Of a stretch of DNA of 64,000 nt, positions 14,030 through 54,900 are shown piece by piece; the first letter of the stretch is position 1, and each line of letters starts with the position of its first letter. Position numbers and translations under genes: made by a program. The notes beneath the pieces are model-generated. The model was not told where the DNA came from and searched no databases. It saw nothing but the letters and a program-made list of their open reading frames with translations. The DNA is from Parietaria judaica (taxonomy: Eukaryota; Streptophyta; Magnoliopsida; Rosales; Urticaceae): contig OX940861.1 of NCBI GenBank assembly GCA_954871525.1, positions 11,392,842 through 11,456,841 on the forward strand, given 5' to 3'.

Positions 14030-14045
14030 ACGCGTTGACTTACGC

Positions 14046-16635: not shown

Positions 16636-16639
16636 TTGG

Positions 16640-18310
16640 TTATTGGGCCTGCTCGGCGCGCTCTCGTTCCGACCTAAAGAAGTCCAACAGCAGATCCCCG
16701 AGCTCGCCCTTCAGATATTTGTCGGCGAGACGAGCCCGCAGGACCATGCAATTTCTGGTATGGTGTCCATAACTCTGGTGGAATTTGCACCAGGCACTGA
16801 GGACCCTGTTGTTGGATGTCATATCACCGGCGCTCATGTACAATTCCCCTTGCTCGTTGGCTTCAGTTTCTTCCTCAGCTTCTGAGTTAAGATTGTACAC
16901 TTGGTTTTGGGGGTGCGCTCTTCCCCCCCGGGTTGGGATACTCCGTGATGGAAGTTCCCGTGCTAGGGATTAGATCCCCTGATAGGAACGTCGTTCCTGG
17001 GGCCCTTGAATGAAGTGACTGGCCATTCCTTGACTGGGATGGATGTGCCCCGGGCCTTAGTACATTCGGGGATGACCCGAACTTCCTCTTTAGAGCTTCG
17101 TGTTCCTCATCATGTTTGATCCAATTTGAGGCACGGTGGATCACGTCCTCTATCGAGGTGTACCGGTTGACCAGAATGTCGGTCTTGAATCTGGAGTCAT
17201 ACCATAATCCACTGGTTAGAGCGGCGATAGCCGTTTCGTCCGCTAGTCCGTTAATCCAGACCATTTTAGCCTTGAACCTCATCATGAAGTCTCTAAGAGG
17301 CTCATTTGCCCTTTGCTGCAGGGCGTACAAGTTTGTCACGGTGGTCTCAGTTTCCATGAACATGGAAAAGTGCTTGAGAAACACCATGGTCAGTTGTTCG
17401 AAATCATCGATCGATCTCGGTTCCAACTTAAAGAACCATTCCATTGCTGCCCCCGTGAGGTTTTCAGCAATGTACTGGCAACGCCCGGCGTCCAGCTCGT
17501 GGACATCCAGGTTTGCCCGTCCCATTGCGATTCTGAATGCTCTCAGGTGCACCTTTAGGTCGGTGGTACCGTCGTACTTGGGCAGGTTAATCTGCCCGCC
17601 GTGCCTCAAGCGCGTATCCGTGATAGCAGACGAGAAAGGGGTTCTCATCGATTTTTCGACTAGACGCTCGATTTCGGGGGCGGCAGATACTGCACTACTT
17701 CATGGTGCGTTTGAGGTCGTCCAGCTCGGAGCTGTTTTGGGACGAAGGCTCAGCCTGAGTATGTTGAGGGTATGAGCCTGTTTGCCTACCCTCTAGTTGC
17801 AGAGGGTACTTGCCCGGCCCATAAGAAGTAGAGTAGCTCGGATTTTCCGCCCGAGAAGGGATCGAGATCCGAGCTTCATTCGGGTGGTTGCAAGATTGTT
17901 GATAGGGCGTATTCTGCCCTAAATCGGGCTGATTAGCTCCGAACATGGGAGCTCGGAACTGGGTGGTGCCGACGCTTGGTGGCAACGGCAGTGCGCCCGG
18001 GGGCGTGCCTCTCGGAAGAGGCGATTGAATGGTTCTCCGATCTCAGGGATCGTTGGGGTCCAAAAAGTCAGTGGACCGCATTGACCCGCTCGTGATTCCT
18101 TTGCCCAGAAGTCTGCCCAGGCTCGTTCACAGAGTAGGGCCTCTGCTCGAACCGGGTCTGGCTGCTCACGAGGACCTCAATTTGCCTTTTGAGTTCTTTA
18201 TTCTCGGCTACCTTTTCCTGTAGTTGGGTTCTCAGAGCCTGCCCTTCCGCATCGTGGTCGAGAGTGACCTCCATCGGAGCGTCAACGACAAGATTCTCTT
18301 CCAAACTCAT
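16640..18310 (-). pseudogene. Tat gag (capsid/nucleocapsid), broken into several frames
   Basis: The start ATG at 18310 gives an N-terminal coiled-coil segment (EENLVVDAPMEV ... LQEKVAENKELKRQIE) that stops at 18068. A linker frame follows (17985-17695), then the capsid-like Retrotrans_gag domain (17648-16887; LPKYDGTTDLKVHLRAF, AAMEWFFKLEPRSI, YALQQRANEPLRDFMMRF). An overlapping frame (16900-16640) carries the zinc-knuckle-like CKFHQSYGHHTRNC. At least three stops or shifts separate the pieces. All pieces together match the order of Tat Gag. Confidence 0.85.
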
Positions 18311-29433: not shown

Positions 29434-29600
29434 CTTTTTGTGTTAATATTTGTTTCTCTGCAAAGAGAGCTCTTACTTTTATGGCTTATCTACTGCGCTT
29501 TTTTTTTTTAATTATAAAATCACAAAATTATAAAGTTCTTAGTTCTTACTTTTAATTATATAGTTTAATGATTATTTTTTTAACCGATAATTATCCTTAC

Positions 29601-30404
29601 TGTTAAGGTCGGATTTGGTCAAATCCATCATCAACACAACTCGTGTCGTTTTGTCCATAAACGACATGAGGGAGGCGAGGAAGTTCACCGGCGAAGAGGG
29701 AGTTATCCCCGAGGAAGGACATCCCCGAGGAGGAATACCCTGAGGAAGTTCATCAGCGAGGGGACGTAGCCACGCGAGCAAGCGGGTCGCGATGAAGCGT
29801 CCCATCACGACTCGACGAGGAACTTAGTCATGATGATTATGCAGAGCCCGATGACAGCCGAAGAGACGCGCATTTAATGAAGCCGACCTACTCACTCGAT
29901 GAGAGCGTCAGCGACGAAGGCCTGCAGGGCCGAATGACGGTTGACGAGATGGGCATTTAATGCGGCGCACCTACCCATGACGGCAGCGTGCTCGAAGGTG
30001 ACATAAAGTGAGGATAAACCTTGCTGCCCTCAAATCACGTCAGAGAATGATGATTAAATAAGGAAAAGGCGGGAAAAATAGAGGAGGAAGGCATTGTAAA
30101 CTCTATAAAAGGCAAGATAAGCATCATTTGTAGAGGTTGTTGGTTGGTTGGTTGTTCGAACAAAAGGGAGAGAAAAAAGACTCGAGAAAGGAAAGAAAAA
30201 GAGATCTGGCAATAGAAAAGGTCGAAGAAAAAGATATATCCGAGGTTCATGATCCTTCATCTGTCCAGCTATTTAACGGAAGAAAACCGAGCTCATTTCG
30301 GAAATTATAATAAAACAGAGATATTCATCATTTGTTGTCATTTTATTTATTATTTGATGATTGTCTTTGTGACTGGAAAAGGGTGGTGAAAAACCCCCTC
30401 TACA
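29601..30404 (+). repeat. 5' LTR of the F-box element
   Basis: TG...CA termini. A TATA box (TATAAAA) at 30104-30110 lies in a suitable position to start transcription of the element, and an AATAAA signal lies at about 30309. Long purine-rich 'gagaaaaaagactcgag' leader sequence follows the TATA box. Confidence 0.92.
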
Positions 30405-30405
30405 G

Positions 30406-30425
30406 TTTGGCGCCCACCGAGGGGC
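30406..30425 (+). other. Primer binding site
   Basis: TTTGGCGCCCACCGAGGGGC begins one base after the LTR end. The TGGCGCC start complements a tRNA ending GGCGCCA, the same class of primer as the Tat element at 18350. Confidence 0.8.
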
Positions 30426-30922
30426 TTTGTTTTCTTTCTAACTCACAGCCAGGAATTTGGAGGGACATGACGTTATCAAACGACGCCATCGTCAGCGACG
30501 CGCTCGACGGTTGAGTGCGCGAAAATCGCAAGCAGAGTATAAAGAGGCAACTCAAGGGACATCAGTGACGTAAGAAGGGGAGACGTACGGACTCCTTGCA
30601 TTTAAGAGAAGCCGATTGATAGACGGTTGGTCAGAAAAAGGAGTGCACGCGTATCAACAAATGGGAGCAACTTCCGAAGCGTTGTGAAGCGACAGCGAAA
30701 GAGAGGATGCGAAGAGTCGCTTGCGAAACAATCAATGTTTATAAAATGGGAAGTTTGGAGAAGATAAAAAACAACGAGTCTGCGGAAATAGAAACCAACT
30801 CGGTTAACTCCCAGATAAGTATCGTTCTCTCAACCCAGAAAACAAAAGATCCTTTCTCACTCCGAAACCAGTGCTTGCTAGTGTTTTTTGAAATACAGGC
30901 CGGGAAAGCACACGAGGAGAAG

Positions 30923-31924
30923 ATGGCGCCCAGAGAAGGAGATGCTGGCCAGAGTCACACAGACGAGTCAGAGATGATCGTGGATGAAGACTGGGGATGG
31001 ACCAAGGAGGGCGCAACCGAGGCACGAGGAGGAGATGATTACGAGATGACGGACTTCTGGAAGCACGAGGAATGGCCGGAAAGCAGCAAGCCATGTCCAA
31101 TGGATGAGGACATCGCGGAGGGCCAGCGGGATCAAGAGCAGTCAAGGATCCCGGGTGAACCACACCCCGCGTTGGAACTGGTTCTGCCATATCTTATACC
31201 CGAGGAGCTCCTCGCGGTGAAGATGGTATGCACGTCGTTGCGCGACGAGGTTCGGGGAAACAGCCTTCTGTGGCGCAACATCAGCATCTACAACCCGTTG
31301 AGCGAGCGGATGGAAGACGACAATCTCCTGAGGCTGGCAAGGAGATCTCAAGGGAAGATGGAGACTTTGACGTTGGATGGGTGCTTCGAGATCACCAACA
31401 CCGCGGTGGAGACAATCATGCGGGGCAACCCGACGCTCGTAAAGCTATGCCTGCCACGCTGCCACCAAATTACCTTGGATGACGTGGTCAGCAACTTGTC
31501 CACCATCGAGCACAGGATAAAATTCCTGAGGGTCAACGGTTTATTTCCCAGGTTCGTGGAGGGAACCAAGGTCAAACTTGAGGACCTTCCCCCTCTGCTC
31601 GCGGCATGGAATCCAGCCGACCATTCCGAGGAGCAGGCGCATGCCTCACGCGGTCGTCTGCTCGACATGGAATTCTGCAGACGGTGCGACAGAAATGTCC
31701 TGGTCTACGAGAAGCCAACGAGGATTCAAGCAGGAGACTCCGTCCGCCCGCCGTGTTTTGGGCAATGGCGGGATGGGCGTGTTTGCGGTTTTTGCAGGTC
31801 GTGCTACATCCTCGGTACCACGTGGTACACTGACCTCTGCCCGGAATGTAACTTCGGTCGCCCCAGCAGGAGCTCTGTGGAGAAAATCGCGTCGTCAGCC
31901 TGCTCGATCGTCGAAGAGGAGTGA
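30923..31924 (+). CDS. F-box/LRR/Cys-rich protein (SKIP14-like) captured in LTR element
   Basis: Single uninterrupted ORF. The likely start is 30923 (333 aa); an in-frame upstream ATG at 30707 would give 405 aa. An acidic N-terminus (1-78) is followed by an F-box at about 82-122 (PALELVLPYLIPEELLAVK, MVCTSLRDEV, SLLWRNISI) and LRR-like segments at 130-215 (LTLDGCFEITNTAVETIM, LVKLCLPRCHQITLDDVVSN). A Cys-rich C-terminal module has pairs at 252/255, 288/291/294 and 306/309 (CRRC, CGFCRSC, CPEC). The order matches plant SKIP14-type F-box proteins, which bind SKP1 in SCF ubiquitin ligases. The host family has this module order with LVYDCP where this ORF has VLVYEKP. Lack of introns and position just after the retroelement leader suggest capture of a spliced transcript. 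The open frame fits recent capture or retained selection; its function is unknown. Confidence 0.75.
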   Translation: MAPREGDAGQSHTDESEMIVDEDWGWTKEGATEARGGDDYEMTDFWKHEEWPESSKPCPMDEDIAEGQRDQEQSRIPGEPHPALELVLPYLIPEELLAVKMVCTSLRDEVRGNSLLWRNISIYNPLSERMEDDNLLRLARRSQGKMETLTLDGCFEITNTAVETIMRGNPTLVKLCLPRCHQITLDDVVSNLSTIEHRIKFLRVNGLFPRFVEGTKVKLEDLPPLLAAWNPADHSEEQAHASRGRLLDMEFCRRCDRNVLVYEKPTRIQAGDSVRPPCFGQWRDGRVCGFCRSCYILGTTWYTDLCPECNFGRPSRSSVEKIASSACSIVEEE

Positions 31925-32187
31925 GCCCGGAGTAAGGCTCATAAGCTGCTCGGAGCGAGGAGAGGATTGGGGCGGCTACCCCTTTTAACCATTAGTAGAT
32001 TATCATAGGTGATAGAAGTTTGTTTGGGTTCGTTGTGTCGGATTTCTAATGTCTACGTATGTGTGTTTTTTTTTTTTTTTTTTTTTTTATTAAGGAGCGA
32101 GCAAATTATAAAGTTGGCAAAGTGTGTATGCAACTCTGCTCGGTGGTAACACCAATTAGGAGGGAAAGTGTATTGAAAAAAAAAAAC

Positions 32188-32935
32188 CGGCTAAGGGTGC
32201 CGAGCAAGCCCGATCCGGCGAGAGCGCCGAGAAAATTTCAAAATATATATACATATATATACGGCTAAGGGTGCCGAGCAAGCCCGATCCGGCGAGAGCG
32301 CCGAGAAAATTTCAAAATATATATACATATATATACGGCTAAGGGTGCCGAGCAAACCCGGTCCGGCAAAACATGTCGAGATCATATTTACGGCTAAGGG
32401 TGCCGAGCAAGCCCGGTCCGGCAAAACATGTCGAGATCCTATTTACGGCTAAGGGTGCCGAGCAAGCCCGGTCCGGCAAAACATGTCGAGATCATATATA
32501 CGGCTAAGGGTGCCGAGCAAACCCGGTCCGGCAATACAGGCCGAGATCCTATTTACGGCTAAGGGTGCCGAGCATACCCGGTCCGGCAATACAGGCCGAG
32601 ATCCTATTTACGGCTAAGGGCGCCGAGCAAGCCCGGGCTACCGAGAACGCCGAAGAAATATACAAGGCGAGAGTGCCTATGGGATCATGGGAACTAGTCG
32701 GCTCGTACCCGACGAAACCTAGCGATACCCGCAGAAGACAACTACGGCGAGAGTACCAAGAAAATATATACGGCTAAGGGTGCCGAGCAAACCCGGTCCG
32801 GCAATACAGGCCGAGATCCTATTTACGGCTAAGGGTGCCGAGCAAACCCGGTCCGGCAAAACATGTCGAGATCCTATATACGGCTAAGGGTGCCGAGCAA
32901 GCCCGGTCCGGCAAAACAGACCGAGATCCTATATA
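32188..32935 (+). repeat. 55-bp tandem array
   Basis: Units begin CGGCTAAGGGTGCCGAGCAA. The first two are 74 bp (starts 32188, 32262, to 32336); the rest are 55 bp (starts 32336, 32391, 32446, 32501, 32556, 32611, 32771, 32826, 32881). A diverged gap lies at 32640-32770. It follows a 24-base T-run at about 32073-32098. Confidence 0.9.
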
Positions 32936-32936
32936 C

Positions 32937-33560
32937 GGCGAGAGTGCCGAGCAAAAACTAAAAGAGGCGAGAGTGCCCACGGCGAGAGTGCCGAGCAGAA
33001 ACTAAAAGAGGCGAGAGTGCCCATGGCGAGAGTGCCGAGCAAAAACTAAAAGAGGCGAGAGTGCCCACGGCGAGAGTGCCGAGCAGAAACTAAAAGAGGC
33101 GAGAGTGCCCACGGCGAGAGTGCCGAGCAAAAACTAAAAGAGGCGAGAGTGCCCACGGCGAGAATACCGAGCAAAAACTAAAAGAGGCGAGAGTGCCCAC
33201 GGCGAGAGTGCCGAGTAGAAACTAAAAGAGGCGAGAGTGCCCACGGCGAGAGTGCCGAGCAAAAACTAAAAGAGGCGAGAGTGCCCACGGCGAGAGTGCC
33301 GAGCAGAAACTAAAAGAGGCGAGAGTGCCCACGGCGAGAGTGCCGAGCAAAAACTAAAAGAGGCGAGAGTTCCCACGGCGAGAATACCGAGCAAAAACTA
33401 AAAGAGGCGAGAGTGCCCACGGCGAGAGTGCCGAGTAGAAACTAAAAGAGGCGAGAGTGCCCACGGCGAGAGTGCCGAGCAAAAACTAAAAGAGGCGAGA
33501 GCGCCCTCGGCGAGAGTGCCGAGCAAAAATTAAAAGAGGCGGAAGTGCCCACGACGAAAG
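32937..33560 (+). repeat. 44-bp tandem array with 220-bp higher-order period
   Basis: About 14 units of 44 bp starting GGCGAGAGTGCCGAGC. GGCGAGAGTGCC occurs twice per unit. Variant units (GGCGAGAATACC at 33157 and 33377; GAGTAGAAAC at about 33213 and 33433) recur at exactly 220 bp, or five units, showing a recent segmental duplication inside the array. The core GTGCCGAGC is shared with the 55-bp array. Confidence 0.9.
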
Positions 33561-33829
33561 TACCGAGCAAAGAAAAATCACATTCACGACTAAGGGCACC
33601 AAGCAAACCCTCACAGAGATTCGAAGATCGCAAGCAAACTCATATAAAAGAAAATCATCGTCATCACATGTCCATTGGATTCCAAAAAAAGACAAAACGC
33701 AATATCATTATTTACAACTCATAGTTACACCCCGAATACATATGCATACTATAACTCTCGCAGGGACCGATTCCCCCGCACAACGCCATCATCAGAGGAA
33801 TCTTGACCTAGAACCGCATCGGCACATTC
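33561..33829. other. Spacer after arrays
   Basis: Decayed repeat units to about 33625, then unique sequence forming the 3' UTR side of the antisense gene. Nothing else seen. Confidence 0.5.
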
Positions 33830-36800
33830 TTATATAAGGATGTCGCAGCATCGACGAATGATGTCGTCCGCAATTAGGCAAGCAGGATCGTCAGCAGGAA
33901 GTCCTTGAGGCTTACCCGAAGAAACTCTTGCTAAATCCGCATCAGCCCTGCTATCGGCCTGCAAAGAAGGAACCGAAAGTAAAGGATCGACCCCAGAAGG
34001 AAGAGGTAAGAACTACGAATTATTTATGCTGATCCATCTCATACCGTACTCGACGAGGAGGGAAGAACGTCGAAACCCGGCGAGCGCACCCTAGCAACGC
34101 CTTGGGGAAGACAGGGAGAAAGCGGAGGAGAGTTTGGGTCACCGGAGGTTGTCATCTCCAGCTTGGCCAAATCAGCCAGGTACTCCTGTTCCAACTTGCG
34201 CCACCTTGGCAGTTTGGCTCGGAGCTCACCAACAGTCGAGCGGGAAGGTAACCCCTCGACGAGTTTGATATTCGAGAGCACGCCGCCCAGCAGGCGCTGA
34301 GTACGAGCAATCCCCTCAAGCACACCAAACCTCTCGGAGGCACGCTTCAGCTTGTCAACCGCTTGGTGGTAGAGGCGTAGGCGGGAGAATTCTTCCTCTA
34401 TAGCCCAACTCCTGGCTGCGTCGCGATCCTTGACGAGCTTCCTCAGCGTGGCCTTGACATGGAAGGAGATTTGCTCCTCCCGACCAGGCGACAGGTTTAT
34501 GGCATCGGCGATACGATTGAAACACTCATTCTTCTGCCAAAGCTGTGCCGAAAGAGTGTCCTCGCACCGCCGATAACGCTGCCGCTCCTCGAGAAGGGAT
34601 TCTTCGGCAATAGCGAGGAGGCGTCTATATTCATCGCGCTCGGCCTTACTTTCTGCGATCTTAGCCTCTACAGCCTCGGGGGGAATGCCTTCGTTCCCTG
34701 ATAAAGCCCTCACCGGCGCAAGGGCAGGTGCGAACTCCCCAGCCCCCTCGTGACCTCCTCCGTGGCGGGGGGAAGAAGCGTCGGGGCAAAGTACAACGAC
34801 GCCACCTCTAGCCTGAGGAGAAAAAGAGAGAGTGGGAATACGGAAGAAACAATAAAGAAGCCCGATAAGAAAAAGGATAAGGAAAGGGCAAGCATACAAG
34901 GGCGATAGCAGAAAAAGATTCGACGATGAAAGAAAAAGGTAACCCAAGAAAGATTTCTTTTATTCATATGGTAATTATGCTTGGATTACAGTGAAATACA
35001 GCACAAGCCACGAAATGCAAAATTTACAAAAGCGGGAAATAGAAAGGGAGGCTCTAAGGAAACATCCTATACCGTGGCCTCTGGGAGCGCCAGGGTCTCG
35101 GTGCTCGGGCCGGATCCATCGCGCGATGCCGATCCAAGGGCTACCACCTCCAAGGCAAGGCTTTCAAGTCTCCGACAGTCCAAGGTTGGCGGGTTACAGG
35201 GAGAGAGCGGCGGAGATCTGGGATCCCGGGCAGACTTCTGGTCCAGCTCTTTAACCACGGCCCGGTGCTTATCGCGGCTTTCGCGCCACGAGGATAAGCG
35301 TGTATCGAGGCCCCCGGCTTGTGCCAACAGGGGGTTCTTCTCGACCAAGGCGATATTGGCCTGGTACGCAGCGGCCAAGCGATGGGCGTTGATTGATTGA
35401 TCAAGAAAACCATACTTCACCGACAGACGCTCCAACTTGGCTTGAGCCTCCTCGAACAAGCGCTCCCGGCCAAGACGCTCCTCAACTGCCTCGGCTCGCG
35501 CAGCCTCAAGGTCATCAGCGAGCTTCTTCAACGCGGCATTGACCCCGGACACCAGCTGGTCTTCCCGTTCGGGCGATACGCCAACGGCCTCGCCTATCTG
35601 AGCAAGGCATTCCGCTTGAAGCCGGAGTTTGTCGGAGAGGCTCGCCTCCATAACAGCGCAAGAGTTTTGCTGATCCGCGAGTTTGGCTTCAGCGGCCCGG
35701 CGCAGCGAAACTTCCGATTCCAAGATGGACTTGGCCTCATTGAGCTCGGCCTCGGCGGCCCGGCGCAATGAGCTTTCCGACTCCAAGGCAGATCTAGCTT
35801 CGTTGAGCTCAGCCTCAGCGGCCAGGCGCAATGAGCTTTCCGACTCCAAGGTAGATTTGGCTTCGTCGAGCTCCGAGGAAAGCTTCTCGATCTGCCCCTG
35901 GAACTTCTGCCCGTCGTGGGTGGAAGCCTCAAACCGTTCCCGGACTAACGAGAGTTCTGCCGACAACTCATTGCTCTCTCTCTCAACCCTAGCGGTGGAT
36001 AGCCACACGGATGCGATAACGTCCGACAATAGAGCTACCCTCCGGGCAACGCGGTCGACCAATGCTAAGTTCCCCATGGGATCGCTGGAGGGCTCGGCAA
36101 GTTCGTGAGAAGCTTCGGCCGCGGGAAATGCTCTCGGAGGCGGCAAGGCTGGGAAGCTGGATTGGGCCCGCGGCGACCCGGTAGGAACCTCCTCGGGGAT
36201 TCCCTCGAGGTCAAGGGACGGCTCGGAAGGCTGCGTCAAGCCATCCGCTAATTGGGGCAATGCGCCGGGAGGAGCGACAAGAGGTACTTGCGAGCTGGAG
36301 ACGCCGGTAAGACAAGGGGAAGGCCAGGCCATTGAGCCCTCGAGGGCCTCGACGCCGGGAACGTCGGGAAGAAGCTTCGGATTAGCGGGGTTCACGTCGG
36401 GGAGCGCCCTTGAGTGTTCTTCCGTGGGCCCGGGGAGGATCTGTTCTGGAGCGTCTTCCTCGCCAATGGGCCCCGTATCTCCGTCGTTGGGAGCATTGGT
36501 CCCTTTGACCAAAGGTTGAGTCGGAGGCGTTAAGGCCACAACCGAGTTTCGCATCGCTTCATCGGGGATTCCCCGAGGCGGTGACAGGGAAGACCGGATC
36601 GCGGCCCCCGAAGCAGAAAGAGGAATGGGGTCTTCAGCCCCCGACGGAGGCGGAGGAGGAGCATCCGGCGCGACGACTAGGTGCTCGATGTCTTCCATCT
36701 CCAGTCTCTCCCGCGAGATCTCGGCGGGGTGTACGCACACGTCCGCCGCCGGCCTTGTCCTCCCCGTTGCGCCCTCGACAGGCGCGGTGCCCGAAGTCCC

Positions 36801-37991
36801 TCCCGCAGCTCCTTGAGACGGGTCAGCCGCCTCGAGTTCAGGAGTCGGGTCGGGAACTCTCGCCTTCTTCGCCAGAGAAGCATCACGCTCTTCCTCGGCG
36901 GGGCGCTTGCCCAGGGAGTTTTCTTCCCGAGGAGATCCCCTCGAGGAGCGGGAGGTATCTTGCGAGGAGCGGGCCGCGGACTCCGTCCTCGCCCTTGTTC
37001 GCCGCTCGTCACCAGTATCCTCGACGGGGCGTTTGTTTGAGAAACCGCCCTCTCGGGGGGTGAGCCCCATGAAGCGAGGAGCGTCAGACCCTGCCCGGGA
37101 CCTCGACGATCTGTGCGCCTCCCGATCCCGACCAACGGGAGCGCTATTCCTAGTAGCCACGACTATATCCTCGGCGTTCTTCTTCGGCCTTGGAGCGGGT
37201 TTCTTCCGCTCCACGGGAGACCCTTCCGGGGCCGGTTCGCGAAGGAAACCTTTCGGGAGAAGAGTGTTAGGGGGCGCCCCGTGTATTCGGGCCAATTGAT
37301 AAACCCCAGATTTCTCAAGCCGCTGGCCCCCGAAGTCTTTACTCCAATCACGCCTGGGATTGGCAAGGAGAGCAGCGTGGATGCTCTTGAACCGCGCCTC
37401 GGCCTCCTCATTCTCCTCAAGCTTGAATCGAGGGAGGTCCGCTCCCTCGAGCACCAAATCCGTCGGTAGGAAAGCATGGTGGGGACCGAAGTTGGAATTG
37501 TCCACACGAACAAAAAAATATTTATTCTCCCAGCCGGATTCGTTCGAGGGCGTGTTCAGGAGGATGTGCGGTCGGACGCGATGAGAGATGGCAAAACGAC
37601 CCAGATTCTTTGGATTACGGGAGACTTTGAAGAGACGCATCAGGTCCTCGAGCGTGAGCTCCACTTTCTGTTCACATGCAATGGCCAGTGTACAAAGGAG
37701 GAGGCGAAGAGTGTTGGGGCTCACCTGAGCAATCGGAACCCCGAAGGCGTAGAGAAACGCCACGACCAGGAGCGGCGTAGGGAAGCGAAGGCCGACGATG
37801 CGGAAGAACGATTCATAGACGCAAACGAAGTCGCTCTGAGGTTCATCGGCGAACTCGCCCTCGAGAGGGAGACGGGCAAAGCAGGTCCCTGAGTCAGTGT
37901 GGTTATCGACGATATACTTCAAGCCTTCTTCCGTCATGACGGAAGGGGGACTCCGAGTCTTAAATATTGGGCCGGAGCGGGATGGACCCAT
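33830..37991 (-). CDS. Antisense gene with gypsy-type transposon domain and coiled coils, three exons
   Basis: Exon 1 37991-35073, exon 2 34812-34045, exon 3 33958-33830. Donors ACG|GTATAG and ACG|GTATGA, acceptors TTTCTCCTCAG and CTTTGCAG, all phase 0, give about 1271 aa. An open extension upstream of the chosen ATG begins with TTG only. Exon 1 residues about 20-200 hold the 'putative gypsy type transposon' (Transposase_28) domain: ESFFRIVGLRFPTPLLVVAF, LEDLMRLFKVSR, WENKYFFVRVDNSNF. A Pro/Ser/Glu-rich linker follows, then a coiled coil with three about 24-aa repeats (ELNEAKSILESEVSLRRAAE). Exon 2 repeats the exon-1 end in divergent form (DPRSPPLSPC versus DPNSPPLSPC before the splice), suggesting exon duplication. 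It is antisense to the element, like the extra ORF of Tat retrotransposons. The molecular role of these proteins is not established. Confidence 0.72.
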
Positions 37992-38546
37992 CGAGGCGTC
38001 TGAGGGAGAAGGAGGAAGAATTTCGGAGACGAGGAGATGAGGATAAACAACAGCAAAAAGAAACCTGGAGAGAATTCTTGAAAAAAATACGAAAATGCCT
38101 GGAAAAATGGTTTTGAATTTCGAATTTATAGAAAGGGAAGAATGATGAGTAGACACGTCTTTAATCTGACGGCCCAAAATCGAAGCTTGCTAACTCATCA
38201 ACGGTTCGTTTCAAAGGCCCGTTATAAATCTCTACAGGCCCTCAAAGGCAAAAAAGGATGGTCATTCAATGCTGAAGGGACGTGCGTAAGATTCGAGGCT
38301 GACAGATTTTTGGGAAAGAAAAATCGAGGTGGGTCCCGGACCCGAGCAACGTTGAGAAATCTTCGTCGCTGAGAGTTTCGTTGGGGCTTAGGGAAGCAAA
38401 GGAAGCCTAGCGAGGGAAGGGAGCGACTTCATAATATGACCACGCGAGGAGCCGAAGAAGGAGTCACCGACCACGAGCCAATCGACGCCGGCTAGTGCCA
38501 ACCCCCAAGGCAGTTATACTTTATTTTACCAAGTGTATACACTTGA

Positions 38547-38563
38547 TAAAATGGGGGACTAAC
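38547..38563 (+). other. Polypurine tract
   Basis: AAAATGGGGGACTAA immediately before the 3' LTR, the position and composition expected for plus-strand cDNA priming. Confidence 0.8.
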
Positions 38564-39367
38564 TGTTAAGGTCGGATTTGGTCAAATCCATCCTCAACAT
38601 AACTCGTGTCGTTTTGTCCATAAACGACATGAGGGAGGCGAGGAAGTTCACCGGCGAAGAGGGAGTTATCCCCGAGGAAGGACATCCCCGAGGAGGAATA
38701 CCCCGAGGAAGTTCATCAGCGAGGGGACGCAGCCACGCGAGCAAGCGGGTCGCGATGAAGCGTCCCATCACGACTCGACGAGGAACTTAGTCATGATGAT
38801 TATGCAGAGCCCGATGACAGCCGAAGAGACGCTCATTTAATGAAGCCGACCTACTCACTCGATGAGAGCGTCAGCGACGAAGGCCTGCAGGGCCGAATGA
38901 CGGTTGACGAGATGGGCATTTAATGCGGCGCACCTACCCATGACGGCAGCGTGCTCGGAGGTGACATAAAGTGAGGATAAACCTTGCTGCCCTCAAATCA
39001 CGTCAGAGAATGATGATTAAAGAAGGAAAAGGCGGGAAAAATAGAGGAGGAAGGCATTGTAAACTCTATAAAAGGCAAGATAAGCCTCATTTGTAGAGGT
39101 TGTTGGTTGGTTGGTTGTTCGAACAAAAGGGAGAGAAAAAAGACTCGAGAAAGGAAAGAAAAAGAGATCTGGCAATAGAAAAGGTCGAAGAAAAAGATAT
39201 ATCTGAGGTTCATGATCCTTCATCTGTCCAGCTATTTAACAGAAGAAAACCGAGCTCATTTCGGAAATTATAATAAAACAGAGATATTCATCATTTGTTG
39301 TCATTTTATTTATTATTTGATGATTGTCTTTTTGACTGGAAAAGGGTGGTGAAAAACCCCCTCTACA
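38564..39367 (+). repeat. 3' LTR of the F-box element
   Basis: 804 bp, same termini as the 5' LTR, with TATAAAA at 39067-39073. Followed at once by the TSD CTTAC. About 11 substitutions from the 5' LTR and no indels noticed. Confidence 0.92.
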
Positions 39368-39372
39368 CTTAC

Positions 39373-40022: not shown

Positions 40023-40389
40023 TAGAGCTGCACATAAAGAATCGCCAGTGGCGATGCGACGCGTCGCGACGCATTTCCTGGGATCGCGATGCATCGCGAT
40101 TTTGCGGCAAAAGTCGCGATTCGTCGCGATTCTGGACACGCGTCGCGACGTGCAAGGGGGTGATCCGAACTTTCCATCCAACGGCCAGGATGGTGCCACG
40201 TCATCGATCCGTGTGATGTGTTTGTTTGTGGCAATAATAACACGTTTTTCACCCGAAATTTATTACCCAACCACAATTTTTACCCACTTTATTCGAATTC
40301 AACCCTAAAATTTTAAATTTTTTTTTTTTACCCACTATTATTCACCCACCACAATAATTATTCACCCACCCCACCCTCTCCTCAAACCC

Positions 40390-40397
40390 TATAAATA
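40390..40397 (+). promoter_or_regulatory. TATA box of the hAT transposase gene
   Basis: TATAAATA about 150 bp before the ATG at 40545. The intervening leader (40440-40540) is a tandem array of 'aagttctcaa'-type 10-11-mers. Confidence 0.6.
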
Positions 40398-40879
40398 CCA
40401 CCTCTTCCTCCCTCATTTCCTCACCAACAATCTTCCATCTCTCTCTCAAATTCTTTCAAGTTCTCAAATTCTCTCAAGTTCTAAAGCTCTAAAGTTCTCA
40501 AGTTCTAAAGTTCTAAACTTCTCAAGTTCAAAAGTTCTCTCATTATGTCTCGAAGAAGCGGCGGTAGTTTCGGGGGTCGAAGGGCGGCCAGGAATTTGCA
40601 ACCCCAATTTCTACTAGGGGGAACATCGCAGCCTTGTCCCAACGAATACATTCCTGTTATGCTACCCGGAGAAATATTTCCCTCCCCTGCCAATCCAAAT
40701 TATCCCGACGATACAGTACGGTCTCTAAGACCTAGTCTAGTCCGGGCGTTGGCCCACCACCAAGCCAATCCCGATCGTGTGTCCCGAGAATTGGTCGACG
40801 CGGTGGCTCAATCTAGGGGGGGAATAACGATCCTTTTTTCAATCTCATGTTACGGGAAGGTGCCGAATACGGAGCTCAA

Positions 40880-41012
40880 GGTCCCGAAGGTGCCGATCCC
40901 GACGAACCTCAAGGTCCCGAAGGTGCCGATCCCGACGAACCTCAAGGTCCCGAAGATGCCGATCCCGACCAAACTCAACGTCCCGACGATGCCGATCCCG
41001 ACGACTTTCAAA
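40880..41012 (+). repeat. 33-bp coding minisatellite
   Basis: About four units of 33 bp encoding the 11-residue acidic repeat GPEGADPDEPQ in one frame and KVPIPTNLKVP-like text in another. Lies in exon 1 of the hAT transposase. Confidence 0.8.
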
Positions 41013-41307
41013 CGCCGCCCTCGATCCGTGGTTCAAATGTCGGGGTGTACAACCGCGGTTCTCCTCAACCTTCCAATCAAAGATAGCGGTGAAGCCTCCG
41101 TTGCCCGTCCTCGACGAGGTCGACGTCCTTCTACCGGGTAATAACCTTTAATCGTTTTTTTATTTCATTAATTATTAATTTTTTATTAATTAATAAGTTA
41201 GTACTTAATAATAAATAATAATTAATAAGTAATAAATAATAATTAAAAAAAATAATTGAAAAAAAATAATTAATTTTTAATAATTAATAATTATTAAATA
41301 ATAATCA

Positions 41308-41568
41308 CTTGAAAGTCTTAGTATGCTCTGTGGTTGCGGTTCCGACTGATCTTCCACATCAGAAACGATTTTCTTGAGATTTAATAATCATTTAATCATA
41401 TTATCTTAATTAATTAATTTCGTTTAATTTTTTTACGATAATATTATAGTTTAATTATTTTAGTTTATTTAATTAATTTGTCACGTATCTTGAAAGTCTT
41501 AGAATGCTCTGTGGTTGCGGTTCCGACTGATCTTCCACATCAGAAACGATTTTCTTGAGATTTAATAA
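41308..41568 (+). repeat. 78-bp direct repeat in the hAT intron
   Basis: CTTGAAAGTCTTAG and the following about 65 bases at 41308-41387 recur at 41489-41568 with about one difference, 181 bp apart. The rest of the intron is almost pure A/T. Confidence 0.85.
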
Positions 41569-44500
41569 GTTACTGGGATTAAAAATGGTAATTTGTATGT
41601 GTGGTGATTATTATAAAGTTCTTAATGGAATACGGTGTCTTAGAAAGATTGGTTTTTAAATAAGGTTTGCTTTGCAATCTCCTCCAAGCTAGCCTGGGAA
41701 CCTCGGGGAGTTCTGTCTAGAAAAGTTTGGGCCTAAAGCGAGATCATAGCATCCTTTCCAGTCGATCTGGCCGTGGAACCTCTGGGAGTTCCGTCAAAAA
41801 GAGCTTGTTAATGATTTCCACACATAGAAAATACCATTTTTAATTTCGTTAACTATTTTAATTAACTATATGAAATTTAATTAATTAATATGACTAATAT
41901 TAATATTTAATCCATGTAAAATTAATACCAGTTTTTATGTTGTTAACCTTTTTTCTCCCTTATATTTTCAATAGGGAAAGTCCTCCTGCCTTGTTGTGGG
42001 GACGACCAAACAAAGCGAAGGTGTGGGATTATTTTTACGAGAAACGACGGGTGGAGAACGGTGTTCGAGTCAAGATTGCCACGTGCAAGAAGTGCCATAC
42101 AACCCTCGATGCGTTGGGGGACAAAGGAACCGGCTACTTGACGCGACATAAAAAAGCGTGCTACGGAGACGGTAACGAGGTAAACACAGCACAGGTAAGT
42201 GCTCTTACTACCGAAAATTTACGGAAATGGACCCTCGAGTGGTTACTGTCTACGGGCGCACCGATGAGTTTGGTGGAAAACCCTGCGCATACACAATACA
42301 TGCAAATGGTTAATCCGTCTTACGAACAGTTTTCCCGTACGACGTATACCAGGGACATGGAAAATGCTTACAAAATGCAAAAAAATTATTTGGTCGATTT
42401 TTTAAAAATGTCCAACATAAACGTTGCTTTCACCACCGACTTGTGGAGCGGTCCGAGTCTTAACGATTATTTGAGTCTGACCGCCCATTACGTCGACGAT
42501 GATTGGGTTCCATGTCAAAAACTTTTAAATATGTCACCATTCGAGTGTCGCCATACCGGCAAAAACATTTCCGATAAATTAATAGAATTATTCAATGATT
42601 GGGGTTTGCAAAATCGTATTATTTCTATTACGTTAGACAATGCCGCAAACAATAACGCCGCTATTACTATCTTAGAAAATAGTTTGCCCGGTTCTCCTTT
42701 TCGTAATATTTTACATCAAAAGTGTGCTTGTCACATCATTAATTTAATTGCTAGAACGGGCGAACGAAATATTTCAGGGCACGTTGAAAAAATACGCGGC
42801 GTTATCGATTGGATTCGGCATTCTCAAACCACCGTTAGGTGGAGACGATTTTGTAAAGAGCACAATCATAAAGCTAATAAGTTTGGTTTAGACAACAATA
42901 CACGATGGAACTCTACATATCTAATGCTTTCAGTTGTTTGTAGACAGAGGTTACCGTTAAGCGCTTTCCTCCTCACCGAACTAGAGGCCTCGAAGCGGAT
43001 CACGGAGGCAGAATGGGAAACGGCCCAGAAATTCACCCAATTCCTCAAACCCTTTTACGCTGTTACTTTAAATTTTTCGAACCAAAGACAACCTTCCTTG
43101 AATCATGGTCTTTCGGGTCTTTATGAAATTACAAACACTTTTTCTGAATTCGCAAATGACCCTGTTATCTCGCCCATGATTGAGGGAATGGTTGCAAAAT
43201 TCAAAAGTTATTGGGATCCACCCCCTTTTTCGTATTGTTTCGGTGCTATCTTAGATCCCCGTATTATTTTTACGTTCGGGCCGTTGATGTCAGCAATCGG
43301 GACAAACATAGGGGTGGATTACACTGATTATATTAAGGTTGTTAATGAAGCTATTTATGAACTTTACAGTGAATACGACCGGCGGTTCCCACAGTTCAAC
43401 GTGGAGGCGGAGCAAAGGGCAGTGATGGAAAGCCCAACCAAGACCGGCCTAGCATTTGTCCGTAGACTGAAGCAAAGACTGGATCGCGGAGAATCATCGG
43501 GATCCGGTACGCCACCGGCACGAGCGGAGGAAACGGACGGTGCACCGCAAGAACTGAAGCGGTAATACGGCCTGCGGATCGACGAGGACTCCGTCGAGTT
43601 CGATGTGATTGGATGGTGGAAGAATCAACGGGAAAGATTCCCGATATTGGCGAGAATGGCGAGGGATATACTGTCCATCCCCATTTCCAGCGTTGCTTCG
43701 GAGAGCGCGTTCAGTTCGGCTCAGCAAATAATCGACGACCGGAGGGCGTCAACAACTCCCACACACCTCGAGCAAGCGGTGGTGTTGAACGATTGGATGT
43801 TCCGCAACCCCACCATCGCCCAACGGTCCGAGCCAACCGAGCTAGAGCTTATGACTCAAAGGTTTAACGACTGGTTCCCCGAGTGACGCAATGTAAACGC
43901 CAATATGATGTGCTCTTTCCTCTCTTGGTTTTATGTCCCTAAGGAGGGTTTTACAAGAGAGGTTTTAGTGAGGCATCTTGTAATATTTACACTGAATATT
44001 TACAACTTCTTCCACCATATTGTAATATTCACAATGAATAATACAACTTTTTTTTAATATCTTGTTTTATCATATTTACTTATTTGTTTTATATTTTTAA
44101 TAATTATTAATATGTTACAAATCAAATAATAATTTTACTTATTAGCATATATTACAACTTAAAAATTAACTTATAAAAATTATTAATATGTTACAAATTA
44201 ATATTTATTAACATATCTTACAAATTAAAAATTAACATATAAAGAGAAATTAATAATATGTTACAAAATAATAAATTATAACATACTAAAATATTAATTT
44301 TGAAATAAATAAAGTTTAAATAATAATTTTAAATAATTTAATACTTAAATTCGGATAAAAACTAATAAAATTAAACATTGGAAACAAAAAATAACTTTTG
44401 TCGCAGCCCTTTTTTTGGTCTAGAATCACCCCTCCTCGCTAAATCGCGACCACGTCGCGACGCATCGCGACCAGGCAAGCCACGACGCATCGCGACCAGC

Positions 44501-44872: not shown

Positions 44873-47800
44873 TGTTGGAAAATATTGCAGTTAAATAAAA
44901 TTGAGATAGCGTCGAGTCGCTCGAAATGTCGAACACTCGAGACGAACGCTCTATCCAATTACCGAGATTTGTTCCGACGTTTGAACGTTACGTAAAACAG
45001 TCATATTGATTATGACAGTTATGAATATTGAATTCAATTTATTACGTTTCGGATTAATTGCAATTTATTATTAACGGTTATAGAATTGATTGGTAATCAA
45101 TTCATTGTCTCCCTTCGGTACCTATATATTGACCGTGATCTCGAACCTATTCGACACACCGTTTGCAAAACTACTTTCCGAAAACCTCTCTAAATACGAA
45201 TTTGCTTCTCAGTTTTTCACTCCGCAAATTCAGCTTTTGATGCTTCCCATGTTTCTTTGTCGTGAGTCTTTCGGTAACGGAGTTCAAGAAGATTCGGTTC
45301 GCCGGCGGGCTTCGAAGTGCTACGGAGTTCCTGGTCGTCCCGTTATATCCTGGGAAGCTAATCACCTAACGAACCTCAAGCACGTAGAGGAGGCGAATCA
45401 AGCTTTAAGGAGAGCGGCCAACGCGTCTCGGGAACCGCTAACCGTTTTTCTATTTTACAGGATATCAAGAACACTCTTTTGGATCAAAGCGTAATTCGAT
45501 GCTCGTCAAAGCCAAGAACACAAAGATATGTATCATCGAATCTATTCGCTATTGTTTTTTTTTTTATCTAATTTGTGTCTCATTGTCGTTATATATAGAA
45601 AATATACCCAACAATCTTAAAGCTTGATTTTTTATGATGATGAGAAACATAAACAGAAACAATTCGGCCAAATAGAGATCTGATAAGCTAACAGAGGTTG
45701 GAAAAGTGGTTATGAAGAAGTTCCGGTGTTAGGATGGAAGTTCCAAGACCTGAACACGTTGACTAAGAATATCCATTACATATGTTCTTCGATAATTTTT
45801 TATTTTTTTTGGTTAACCAGAAATTTGCAGAATTGAAGCAAATAAATAAGAGCGATGGAGGTGGCCAAAGAAACAAACACGAGGAGAAGTTTCCGATCGA
45901 AATTCAAAGATGCATCAAAGTTTCGAATCTAAGTTTTGCACCAAAATTTACAGATTGGAGAAAAGAAGATGACCGTGACTCGAAACTGGTCGACGAACGC
46001 TGCGCCGCTATATGGCGCTGCGGTTGCCATCATCGATGGGCTCGCGGGTGCAGGAAAGCTAGCTTGAGGAGAATTTCAGCAAGCTTCGTCGCTTGGAGCA
46101 GAAGCTCTGACTCGGGTCAGGACAACGCATATGTTTCACGTGGTGAAGACAGCTGATGAAATTGGTCGAGGAGAAAAGAGGGAGTCAGCTGGAATCAAAG
46201 AGTCAGCATCTATCGGCAGGATGTCATTCCGTGGTTCGTGGCTCTTCGCTGGCCGTCGAGCACATGACTGTCGTGGTCCGTGTTTGTGCTGCTGGCGGCG
46301 GTGGCTGAATTGCCCGTTCAGACGTATCGGGACGCACATTGAGTTAAGGACAATTAATTTCAAATTTAATAGCTTTTATTTTTTGACGTTAGTTTTTGTT
46401 TTGTGGCTTAGTGAATATGAAGAGACGGTGAAGAATCCATGGAAACGAGGAACCAACCAAACGGATGAAAGGGCACTAACATAACGCAGTAAATGCACAA
46501 AACTAACTGTGAGTTATTGCTATTTATGTTCTATTTACTCATTTACCGTGCAAATGATCTATTTACTCAGCTATGACATGTGGATACTGGATAGCACATT
46601 AATATATAAATAGTAGTTACTAATGCGTCTGTGAATTGTCTATATCTATTCAAACTCCAGTATATACGACACATATATATTGGTGGACTTTTGATATCAC
46701 TTCTCATTTTTATAATGAATTTATATATTATATGTGTATATAGTGTAGTTATTTTTCTTTCCATTAAAATGTACATTATGTCGTTAGTCTTGTATTAAAT
46801 ATATATATATATATATGCAGATTGCAGAATATATGTATACATATATTTTGATATTTATCAATAGTAATTAGTAATATTCAATGAGATAAATGTGTTGTTT
46901 TCATGAGAAGTTTTTATGCCTTGCAAAATTGTATACCATGAGTATATATCCATGGGGATGTGTCTTTTATTTTTTAAAAAGACATCACTATACGTGAGAA
47001 TTATTTTGTGGAAAAATAATTATGTTCGGTTATAGTACACCTGATTATTGATCGAGGTACTAAGCGTGAGAAGTGGAATTAAAATTATGAATTTAATTCT
47101 AAGTTGGCAATTTTTGAAATGATAGAGAATTGTTTTGAGAGAATTGCTTGAATATTTCATTGAAGAATGTTAATTATTTCTTGAGATAAATTTTGTGGTT
47201 TCCAAAATCGTTGGAAAATATATACGGAAATTTTGTGACAACTTACATTTTGTCGAAGTACACTTGATTATTGACCGAGGTACTCGTACATTTAACTAGA
47301 AATTGCGGTTTCAAGTTTAATTTGTCTTTAGACCAGTCAAAGAGGCTAGAAGCGCTCAAATGACGTACATGCACGTGCATAATATATTTATGGCGACAAT
47401 GTCAAACTATATTTATCACAAGATAAAATAGAGAAGTTCAAAGGTTTGTGAATCTTGAATTTCTATTAATACCTGAAAATGTGGGGGCGTTTAACGAGAC
47501 CATTCAAAGAGGCTAGAAGGCTCAAATGACGTACATGCACGTGCATAATATATTTATGGCGACAATGTCGAACTATATTTATCACAAGATAAAATAGAGA
47601 AGTTCAAAGGTTTGTGAATCTTGAATTTCTATTAATACCTGAAAATGTGGGGGCGTTTAACGAGATTAGTCGCTTCACGTTAAGTTGATGTACATAGGTC
47701 CGAGGACCATAGACTACATCTATGTATGGTATTTTCATAATTAAATTGAGAATTAATTCTTGGAGTGTGATTCAAAGAATGTTGATACTCAATAAAGAAT

Positions 47801-49554
47801 GCATCAGTTCACACTCTTGAAGGATTTAAAATCCATTAAGTGGGTACGCTTTCACCCAAATGCGGAAAGCTTCCAAATATACGTAAGAGATTCACAATAT
47901 AATCTTTATATTGTCTTAGACAAATACGGCAATAAGGCCGAGTGGCTAAGAAAATGTTTGGAAGATAATTTGAAATGGCAAAAACCGCGTTTATAATTTG
48001 CATTGACTATGAAATTCAGTATGCAATTAAAAGAGCATAAAACCATGTTTATAATGGTAAGTCTAGACATGAATGTCGTAGACTTAATGTCGTTAGAAAA
48101 CTACTCTCAAAGAAATTTTATCATAATTGATTATGTAAATCAAATAATAATGTTGTGGATCCACTACCCAAAAGGGTAAAAATGAGAGTTGGTTGTGAAA
48201 TCATCAAAGGGAATGTGACTTAAGCCTATTGAAAAATTAAGTTTTACAGTGGAAACCCAACCTAGATGACTGGAGATCCCAAGAACTAGGTTCAATGGGA
48301 CAACCTAGCTGTAAGACTTTAACGGATCACTGTGGGGGTTACACCCCAGTCCATTCCTATGATGAAAAACAGTGATATATGTACGGTTAAGGATAAGCCA
48401 GAAGCTTTTAATGATTCTTACACTTCAGTATATGATAACCGAGCGGAGCATAGTTTGCTTTTAGTAAGATCACCTATGTTAGAGTGAAGTGGGGTCGCTT
48501 CAACGGAATTGTAAAGGGCGCAAATTCCGTAAACTCTCGCAGAACCAGAGGGTGTTCATGACCATGAACGAACACAATAGTGAGAACTGAATCTGTCTAA
48601 GGAGAATTCTGTGTGAGGTATATTCTCACTTACACAAACGGTCGAACAGTTCAAAGACATCGCGTCTACTGATCACCAGTAAAGAAATATATTTTCACAA
48701 GGGAAGGTTCAAAGGGTTACACCTACCTATCCTATGCAGGATTTGACTGCCGAACTCTGTTACCTGAGACAGGTGTTGTCAAAAGTGATCTGTCAATTTT
48801 ATTTATGTGGGGGATTGTTGGAAAATATTGCAGTTAAATAAAATTGAGATAGCGTCGAGTCGCTCGAAATGTCGAACACTCGAGACGAACGCTCTATCCA
48901 ATTACCGGGATTTGTTCCGACGTTTGAACGTTACGTAAAACGCTCATATTGATTATGACAGTTTTGAATATTGAATTCAATTTATTACGTTTCGGATTAA
49001 TTGCAATTTATTATTAACGGTTATAGATTTGATTGGTAATCAATTCATTGTCTCCCTTCGGTACCTATATTTGACGGTGATCTCGAATCTATTCGACACA
49101 CCGTTTGCAAAACTACTTTCCGAAAACCTCTCTAAATAAGAATTTGCTTCTCAGTTTTTCACTCCGCAAATTCAGCTTTTGATGCTTCCCATGTTTCTTT
49201 GTCGTGAGTCTTTCGATAACGGAGTTCAAGAAGATTCGGTTTGCTGGCGGACTTCGAAGTGCTACGGAGTTCCCAGTTGTCCCGTTATATCCTGGGAAGC
49301 TAATCGCCTAACGAACCTCAAGCACGTAGAGGAGGCGAATCAAGCTTTAAGGAGAGCGTTCAACGCGTCTCGGGAACCGCTAACCGTTTTTCTATTTTAC
49401 AGGATATCAAGAACACTCTTTTGGATCAAAGCATAATTCGATGCTCGTCAAAGCCAAGAACACAAACATATGTATCATCGAATCTATGCGCTATATTTTT
49501 TTTTTATCTAATTTGTTTCTCATTGCATCATATATATAGAAAATATACCCAACA
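44873..49554 (+). mobile_element. Non-coding LTR retrotransposon (LARD-like), 4.7 kb
   Basis: LTRs 44873-45613 and 48816-49554 (TGTTGGAAAA...ATACCCAACA, about 740 bp) with a perfect TSD CTTTG (44868-44872 and 49555-49559). A PPT-like TTATGTGGGGGAT precedes the right LTR, so the orientation is plus. No convincing PBS is seen at 45614. The 3.2-kb interior has no recognisable gag or pol. Small ORFs at 45782-46156, 45969-46067 and 47799-47996 are not recognised. About 25 differences between LTRs (hand count, about 3.4%) make it older than the F-box element. Confidence 0.88.
47331..47664 (+). repeat. 167-bp tandem duplication inside the LTR element
   Basis: 47331-47497 and 47498-47664 are nearly identical (both contain CAAATGACGTACATGCACGT and end GGGGGCGTTTAACGAGA). 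A related 'tgattattgaNcgaggtact' block also occurs twice upstream (about 47043 and 47268). Confidence 0.85.
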
Positions 49555-51951: not shown

Positions 51952-54900
51952 ATGGTGAGGATGTTGGTCCGAATAATTACGTGTTCGTTAATGCTGGTTT
52001 TGTTCGATTTGATGGGATTCGCAGCAAGCAATAATGGCAAAGTTATAAGATGTTTAAACACCGATGAGGAAGAAGAAGCGAAGATTGTAAAAATAGGAGT
52101 AGTTATTGATCAAAGGAGTCGAATGGGCAAAGAACAAAAAATCGCCATGGAAATGGCAGTCCAAGCTTTTTCTCAGTCCTCTCATCTCAAGCTTGATTTG
52201 CTTCACAGAGATTCCCAGGGCATTTCGGTCAAAGCCACTGCTTCTGGTAATCATCATTCATCAACAGTACTTCTTATTGTTTATTATGGTAATCAATGGA
52301 GTCGCTTACTCATTTATTTGATTCAGCGGTTGATCTTATTAAGACCCAACGAGTTACGGCACTCATCGGAACCCTTACCGAGGAGGAGGTAGCACTCGTC
52401 TTTGAAATAAGCGGCGCGCCGGAGAATTTCCCGATCATATCGCTCAACTCTCCGACCATGAGTCGCCTGAAGACGACACCGTCCCTGTCAACAAATTTCT
52501 TCCAGCTATCTGACGACGTTGTTTACCGGACGCAGTGCGTCGCGGCCCTGATCGGCCATTTCAAGTGGGGGAAGGTGTCGGTTATTTACGAGGAGAGAGA
52601 CGGATTCTCTAATGGATCCGGGGCGGAGATATCTCTTCTCTCCGACTCACTCCGGTTGGTTAACTCGGAGATTGAGCAGCACCGCGCTTTTCCTGCGCTC
52701 TCTCTGCACTCCGACCGCGAGATAGCCGCCGAGGAAGCGCTTCAGAAGCTTGAAGGTTGCACCACTAGGGTTTTCGTGGTCCTCCACTTCTCCTTGGAGA
52801 CTGCGTCGACGCTCTTCGAAAAGGCGAAGCAGATGGGAATGATGGGGAAAGGCTATGTATGGATTGTTGCTGACGAGATCATCGACCTCATTGATGCCGT
52901 TGGCTCCAAGCTCAGCGACATGCAAGGCGTCATCGGAGTCAAAACCAAATTTCCCGACACAGAAAGTTCATTTAGGGTTTTCAAGAAGAACTTTGGACAA
53001 GCTTACGAGGCCGAATACCCCGAAGAAGACGACCGAAGCTCAAACCCTAGCGCCTTCGCTCTGCGAGCTTACGATGCGATCAGCATGATCTCCCATGCGC
53101 TAATTGGAGAAAAACTGTCGGATAATCTCAAGTCCGTCGAGTTTAGAGGTAAAAGCGGCTTGGTCAAGTTCAAGGGTAACGGGATGCTCGACCGGAAAAC
53201 GGCGTTTAAGATCATAAACGTGGTTGGCCAAAGGTACAGCGAGATAGCTCAATGGTCAACGCTGACCAGAGATAGGGTTAGTGATGGTTTTGTTGGGTTG
53301 ACTGTTTCAGCTCCGGTGTATTGGCCGGGAGGGCTTCAAAAAGTGCCTACGGGTTGGTCTTGGTCCGACATGGAGAAGCCAATCAGGATTGGGGTTCCGG
53401 CAAAAGGCGCTTTCAATCAGTTCGTACGGGTGAGCAACGACTCGGGTGGGAACAAGACGTCGATCACCGGATTTTCCATTGACGTTTTCAAGCAAGTGGT
53501 GGAGCTTCTTCCTTACAAGTTGCATTACGAGTTTGTCCCTATCTATGCCACGTATGATGAGATGGTGAAGCAAGTGTACTATAAGGTACTACATTTATAC
53601 TCTTTTTTTCTCTCTCTCTATTGTAACAAGTTTTTTTCGTGGTTGAGAGATTTCAGTTTTTTTTTTTTAAATTTAAATTCTGGATAATAATATAATGTAA
53701 TGTTACGTTTAGTCAACTCTAACTGGTGGTCCCAATTTGAATTTTTTATTATGTTCTTTCCAAAGTCACTTGTTACATTAACATATTTTTATTGGTATTT
53801 ATATTTTATGGTCCTAATCTTTGTAACAATTCTCAATTCAGATTACACACATAGCTACACTAGTCTAAACTCGCACCCAACTGAGTTAGTCTTACTGACC
53901 GAAATTTGTACTTGGTGTCTACGACAAAACTAGAATTTGGACATGGCCGCAGGAGACACCGACATTTACGCGGAACGGTATGAATTCGTGGAATTCTCGC
54001 AGCCGTACATTAGCTCCGGGCTCGAGATGTTGGTGACTGCAGAGGCAAGCACCGACGAGCCATGGATCTTCATGCGAGCCTTCACCCCTCAGATGTGGCT
54101 CCTTCTGGCGTTTATGCACTTCGCCATTTGTTCCGTCGTCTGGCTCATTGAAAACCAGCACGGCGGGAACCCCGAGCTCAATAGTTTCGGCGACATGCTA
54201 TGGTTTTCTGTCACCATCTTCTTCTTTGCCTATAGTAAGTACCGTTCAAACCATTTATAACTAATGAACGTTGAATTAGATATATATTGTATAGTTTCGT
54301 ATCATCACGAATATGATAAGCTAAAAAAAATTCAATACAAATTCAAATGATAATCGCCTGAGCTAGTCTTATTGTCAAGATATCTATATAATTAATTAAA
54401 TCTAAGATGTACATTTACTTATTTGTAGGGGAGCCAATCAGGAACGGTATGGCACGACTCGTGGTTGCTCCGTGGTTTGTCGTGATCCTTGTCGTGACAT
54501 CGTGTTTCACGGCGAGCCTCACCTCGATGTTCACCGTTTCACGGTTCAAACCTTCGGTGCTAGACATAGAAACGGTGAGGAGGACAAATGGCAGTGTTGG
54601 GTGCAACGCAAACTCATTCATTGTCAATTATTTGCACAATGTTTTGAAGTTTGAAAAAGATAAGATAAAACCCATGTCCTCAATTGATGACTACCCTAAG
54701 GCCTTTGAGCAGGGAGATATAAGAGCAGCTGTTTTTATTAGTCCACATGCCAAGGTATTCCTTGCCAAGTACTGCAACGGCTTCATCAAATCTGGACCCT
54801 TGTACACACAAGGCGGTTTGGGTTTTGTGAGTCTTTTCGCTTCTCTTCTCTTTATCTTTCTCGCCTTTCTCGTTCACATCCGTAAATTCAGTTTATATTC

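Follow-up and report, generated by a model that had tools for sequence, protein, structure and literature searches.

A family of long terminal repeat retrotransposons in Parietaria judaica without gag-pol and with a conserved F-box gene, probably captured from a host SKIP14-like gene or a relative

Captured host genes in long terminal repeat (LTR) retrotransposons have usually been described as fragments or in few copies. We looked at a 64,000-nucleotide stretch of Parietaria judaica DNA (the window, on contig C3 of a genome of 539 Mb), where an LTR element at 29601-39367 has no gag-pol and carries a sense open reading frame (ORF) for an F-box protein. The closest described systems are the Retand elements of the Tat clade of Ty3/gypsy (PMC11963269, PMC6317226), within whose range the LTR and internal sizes of the window element fall. 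Antisense TRP28 ORFs and tandem arrays are common in Retand elements (PMC11963269), and in the window element, too, the 3' LTR is preceded by a long antisense ORF and by tandem arrays. Moreover, 10 of 63 Retand clusters are without a typical domain (PMC11963269). Contrary to Retand, the window element has an F-box ORF instead of gag-pol, the domain PF04195 scores under the cut-off in its antisense ORF, and the gag-pol-bearing partner element that we read (see below) is without a long antisense ORF. In this partner, an additional RNase H lies between the first one and integrase, a position given by PMC6317226, which fits either Ogre or Retand. The term F-box does not occur in the main text of the Retand study PMC11963269.

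Host gene sequence in sense orientation inside an LTR element is also known from maize Bs1 and from further cases of transduction (PMC13317346, PMC7264820). However, Bs1 carries segments of three genes, none of them full length, and transduced ORFs have been described in one or few copies (PMC7264820), whereas here more than 100 diverged copies hold one ORF. PMC13317346 reports negative selection for most of 235 captured genes in one survey, and expression for many sorghum captures, so it is no novelty in itself that a captured gene is under selection; no F-box was found in the available passages of PMC13317346. The AlkB-carrying Gypsy elements of Phalaenopsis (PMC9289625) resemble our case in that a host-type regulatory domain became fixed in a plant Gypsy lineage, but they are 25 kb long and were found through their reverse transcriptase (RT), which the window element lacks. 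Since RT was the marker in that screen of 121 angiosperm genomes, elements without RT would be missed; F-box is absent among the nine of 15 extra domains named in the available section. Finally, the silencing suppressors P0 of poleroviruses (PMC6593998) are F-box-like motif proteins encoded by a plant genetic parasite, a likeness of kind alone for which no sequence relation is claimed. No previous description of an LTR element with an F-box gene was found in the open-licence PMC literature, as covered by listings and the starts of abstracts.

We think it rather probable that the window element belongs to a high-copy family without gag-pol, with a conserved captured F-box gene for a predicted SKP1-cullin-F-box (SCF) adaptor, which is copied in trans by partners with near-identical LTRs. 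Elements devoid of gag-pol have here retained a ubiquitin-ligase adaptor-like gene as one of their own while they diversified over a long time. With this family it can be tested whether altering the turnover of host proteins is of advantage to a transposon, and attention is drawn to accessory genes overlooked by RT-based screens such as that of PMC9289625.

A search of the genome with the F-box protein gave 689 candidates at first look, of which 121 were scored. All 121 matched at 83-100% identity over 327-333 of the 333 residues, 83 of them without internal stop and 38 with stops. We fetched 50 loci of about 4 kb each, consisting of the top 30 (24 stop-free) and 20 chosen among the more divergent, stop-free rows, which makes 44 stop-free copies in the 50. 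An LTR and leader were found directly upstream of the F-box ORF in every one of these loci. Between copies of the family, identity went down to 59%. When four peptides of relatives were used in tblastn, no gag, RT or integrase was detected in the 50 loci at E 1e-5. Similarly, the antisense ORF of 1036 residues gave 4840 candidates, and the 44 places scored all matched at 93-100%; 37 of them had a listed F-box ORF 1.4-3.5 kb away on the opposite strand, a gap that leaves no room for gag-pol. The original prediction, made from the window alone, was right in that the element spreads an F-box gene. It had also seen a rare recent transduction, and this did not hold, the gene being family-wide, diverged and selected at the protein level. 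Single-copy transduction is ruled out by the 121 matches across the genome. An ordinary element into which a host retrogene had inserted is ruled out as well, as all 50 fetched loci have a leader and LTR of one kind upstream of the ORF. Two copies, L036 and L037 (C5:23863952 and 23872544), stand in tandem 8.6 kb apart, and one 6-bp deletion of the ORF is common to both. Three others (L054, L055 and L058) have a leader just 77% like that of the window element; the LTR of L055 is nevertheless 94% like the window LTR, and this mismatch between LTR and leader suggests template switching within the family.

The F-box ORF is intact, its reading frame stays open from 30623, and its start codon lies in the context AAGATGGCG. 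Its parts are as follows.

30923..31924, + strand: intronless F-box / leucine-rich repeat (LRR)-like / Cys-rich ORF, 333 codons and a stop
31160..31288, + strand: F-box, residues 80-122, from Pfam and the lowest ratio of nonsynonymous to synonymous substitution (dN/dS; region 79-122, 0.11)
31676..31849, + strand: Cys-rich part with C252, C255, C278, C288, C291, C294, C306 and C309

Selection on this ORF was studied with pairwise dN/dS after Nei-Gojobori. In a first set of 48 copies of 1002 bp, the median was 0.31 (994 pairs with dS >0.03) or 0.30 (591 pairs with dS >0.15), while four of the five other frames, used as wrong-frame controls, gave 0.79-1.26. A second set of 58 copies was made of 44 of the 50 fetched copies (the 6 with stops were dropped) and 14 of 20 divergent copies from another query (6 were dropped for an open frame <300 codons). 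Its medians were 0.27-0.33 in all five bins of dS from 0.03 to 3, so the comparison between copies proposed with the original prediction gave a ratio near 0.3 whatever the distance. For single regions, with about 1199 pairs each, dN/dS was 0.11 in the F-box, 0.24 in the N-terminus, 0.34 in the Cys-rich part and 0.46 in the LRR-like part, and each of the eight Cys was conserved in 54-58 of 57-58 copies. For the 56 deepest pairs (dS >0.8) the ratio was 0.27, a value also obtained for the window copy against L091 at a dS of 1.0.

Some observations weigh against the account given above. Protein similarity decided which copies were included, and 20 of the 50 were taken because they were stop-free, which may bias dN/dS down; one reverse wrong frame gave 0.39, its wobble positions coinciding with those of the true frame. 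The leader is conserved about as well as the ORF, therefore conservation alone is no proof and it is the dN/dS ratio that carries the argument. The score of the Pfam F-box-like domain PF12937 is under the curated cut-off in every element copy scanned, and in the one partner read in detail, RT and integrase lie in two different frames, which leaves its own activity in doubt. The biased sampling, the conserved leader and the stops at 38 of 121 places are also what would be expected if the ORF were a passenger on the LTRs, with an apparent constraint arising from the choice of similar, open-frame copies. We hold this to be very unlikely, as the ratio is 0.27 even in the deepest pairs, which are the least affected by the sampling bias, and as it is lowest in the F-box while the Cys positions are kept. 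Judged from these ratios, selection at the protein level across the family is supported.

Against PF12937, the window ORF reached 21.9 bits (E 1.5e-4; cut-off 24.3) and five of five further element copies 18.1-23.2 bits, whereas the exon of a SKIP14-like gene of the host scored 27.3 bits, above the cut-off. The F-box similarity expected from a Pfam search was thus found, but short of the curated threshold. A profile that included the host exons matched FBXL2 (E 1.4e-13) and FBXL17 (E 1.5e-6) in PDB. In an AlphaFold2 model, fair quality was limited to about residues 78-205, and the best Foldseek chains for this model were FBXL2 (E 3e-4) and the plant F-box protein D3 (E 9e-4). From the profile matches and this model, an F-box plus LRR fold of the element protein is likely. 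The protein would presumably bind SKP1, its Cys-rich part may bind metal, and it is a predicted SCF ubiquitin-ligase adaptor, which would mark proteins for destruction.

A provisional Arabidopsis SKIP14 sequence, used as query, finds both the element copies and a host SKIP14-like gene at C3:47418206-47419766, which it matches in two pieces, at 48% and 54%. A 244-bp GT-AG intron splits the host gene at LVK|L, while the element ORF is continuous at that site, and 96 other places from the same search match across it without a break. The alignment of host and element proteins scores 105 bits, with 34% identity over 217 residues, covering the F-box and the following region. The kinship with SKIP14 and the loss of a parental intron, both anticipated in the original prediction, were therefore borne out. 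It had named as contrary outcome an old element gene unrelated to host F-box genes: the gene did prove to be an old one of the element, but its relation to host F-box genes stood. The homology to an intron-bearing host gene rules out that the ORF is an unrecognised, diverged gag. When 40 element sequences were placed in a tree together with the host protein and the provisional Arabidopsis one, those from elements grouped as a single clade, set off by a long branch; identity is 31% between element and host and 48.5% between host and the Arabidopsis sequence. Given the absence of the host intron and the identity of 31-34%, an old capture from spliced mRNA is likely, and the F-box gene probably came from the spliced mRNA of the host SKIP14-like gene or a relative, at a time well before the copies seen today arose. 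As the tree has just two sequences from outside the elements, the parent may have been a different gene, or capture may have happened more than once. We take substitution rates of 1.3e-8 to 7e-9 per site per year; at 1.3e-8, the deepest dS of 1.0 would mean about 39 million years, although element copying may be faster.

We then looked at elements with the same ends. A query of 28 bases over the junction of LTR and primer-binding site (PBS), with up to 3 mismatches, hit 939 + 915 places in the genome (1854; 100 listed), and the reversed junction, as a control, none. On C1, the first 23 junctions without mismatch included 3 of the 121 F-box places. The 700 bp behind the other 20 held a gag-like ORF in 13 cases, a divergent F-box ORF in 2, the tandem repeat of the window family in 1 and other repeats in 4. 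Retrotrans_gag was found in all four gag-like ORFs scanned, and the remaining 9 were counted as gag-like because their DNA resembles these four or one another. The partner read in detail, C1:19807940-19816285, is flanked by the target-site duplication (TSD) GTGAC and has the domain order gag, RVT_1, RT_RNaseH, RVT_3, Integrase_H2C2, rve, an arrangement of Tat type. No F-box was seen in the 6.1 of its 8.3 kb that were read, and the DNA after its pol is too short for a long antisense ORF. Over LTR and PBS it is 92.5% identical to the window element, and over the LTR 99.1% identical to the F-box copy L055. It also has in common with the window element a 55-bp repeat (95.8% over 212 bp) and a 376-bp stretch around the purine tract and 3' LTR start (91%). 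In a tree of LTRs, the partner falls among the F-box elements, with support of 0.93 for its pairing with L055 and 0.84 for the group including the window element; the other three gag ends, left untrimmed, match the window LTR in parts only, at 76-81%, and have long branches. Most simply, these elements would be a single family in which two forms exchange ends, and in which the F-box form would be copied by the proteins of the gag-pol form.

The common LTR, PBS, repeat and purine tract also mean that both forms probably meet in the same particles, which would suit an F-box protein acting on the partner, through Gag/Pol turnover or packaging, so that the element without gag-pol outcompetes its helper. 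We regard this as unlikely, since a helper harmed too strongly would end its parasite too. Returning to the account with two cooperating forms, the F-box ORF would be transcribed from the LTR, the element RNA packaged and reverse-transcribed in trans by the proteins of the partner, and the element protein would bind SKP1 so that a host or partner protein is ubiquitinated and element transmission rises. The benefit would go to the element rather than the host, given that selection on the ORF has persisted in numerous copies dispersed over the genome. Tentatively, and with considerable doubt, we propose that the captured gene serves as counter-defence: an SCF ligase would destroy some of the silencing machinery of the plant and protect both the element and its gag-pol partner, labour being divided between two forms with common LTRs. 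Alternatively, the protein could be a competitor or mimic of the host SKIP14-type ligase and shift the levels of its substrates, as the same domain order as in the host gene and the Cys-rich C-terminus would allow. This appears quite unlikely to us: an identity of 31-34% makes common substrates uncertain, and the most constrained part is the F-box, which a plain substrate competitor would not need.

The window element itself is a complete LTR element, organized as follows.

29596..29600, strand not applicable: TSD CTTAC, left
29601..30404, + strand: 5' LTR, 804 bp, 11 differences from the 3' LTR
30104..30110, + strand: TATA-box-like TATAAAA in the 5' LTR, a putative promoter
30408..30425, + strand: PBS TGGCGCCCACCGAGGGGC, putatively of tRNA-Lys type
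30426..30922, + strand: remaining leader, with upstream ATGs at 30467, 30661, 30707, 30735 and 30746
32188..33571, + strand: tandem arrays with units of 74, 55 and 44 bp, the 55-bp unit being common to the gag-pol element
34039..34947, - strand: antisense ORF of 302 residues, from the ORF listing
35067..38177, - strand: antisense ORF of 1036 residues, from the ORF listing
38548..38563, + strand: polypurine tract region AAAATGGGGGACTAAC, whose final base adjoins the 3' LTR start
38564..39367, + strand: 3' LTR, 804 bp
39368..39372, strand not applicable: TSD CTTAC, right

The LTRs differ by 6 transitions and 5 transversions (Kimura two-parameter distance, K2P, 0.0138), which at the above rates would place the insertion at about 0.5 to 1 million years; by this estimate it is young. 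When searched by tblastn with four gag, RT and RNase H-integrase peptides of relatives, the element gave a best E of 0.28. From its sequence, it is a non-autonomous LTR retrotransposon without its own gag-pol. These findings agree with the original prediction of a complete young element with the F-box ORF in place of gag-pol. Its description of the ORFs was correct for the one long conserved sense ORF. However, shorter sense ORFs of 118-160 residues exist, each overlapping the F-box ORF or the antisense ORFs, and the antisense ORFs of 1036 and 302 codons had been overlooked. The longer of these reached 12.2 bits (E 0.22) against PF04195 (Transposase_28), below the cut-off of 26.2; the shorter had no match at E 1 in a Pfam scan.

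The same repeat was observed at 40206-41731 of the window and at L110:1483-3000 (90% over 1546 columns). The window element and the gag-pol partner each lie about 0.8-0.9 kb before it in the same orientation, with unlike TSDs, which may be chance or an insertion preference. Elsewhere in the window, 12714-17699 (- strand) is a Tat-like gag-pol region with gag (PF03732), RT and RNase H domains, 40% (gag), 69% (RT) and 60% (integrase part) identical to the partner. A second pair of LTRs at 44873-49554, of about 740 bp and 96% identical, has TGTTGG..CCCAACA ends, the TSD CTTTG and a purine tract before the second LTR; with no internal ORF of 200 codons, it reads as another element without gag-pol. 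A hAT-like transposase ORF (PF14372, E 2e-9) was detected at 41904-43562 (+ strand) and an ORF with DUF4371 (PF14291, E 2.5e-60) at 61567-63549 (- strand). Finally, the open frame at 52293-53684 (+ strand) has a receptor ligand-binding domain (PF01094, E 5.8e-32) and may represent one exon of a host gene of glutamate-receptor-like type.
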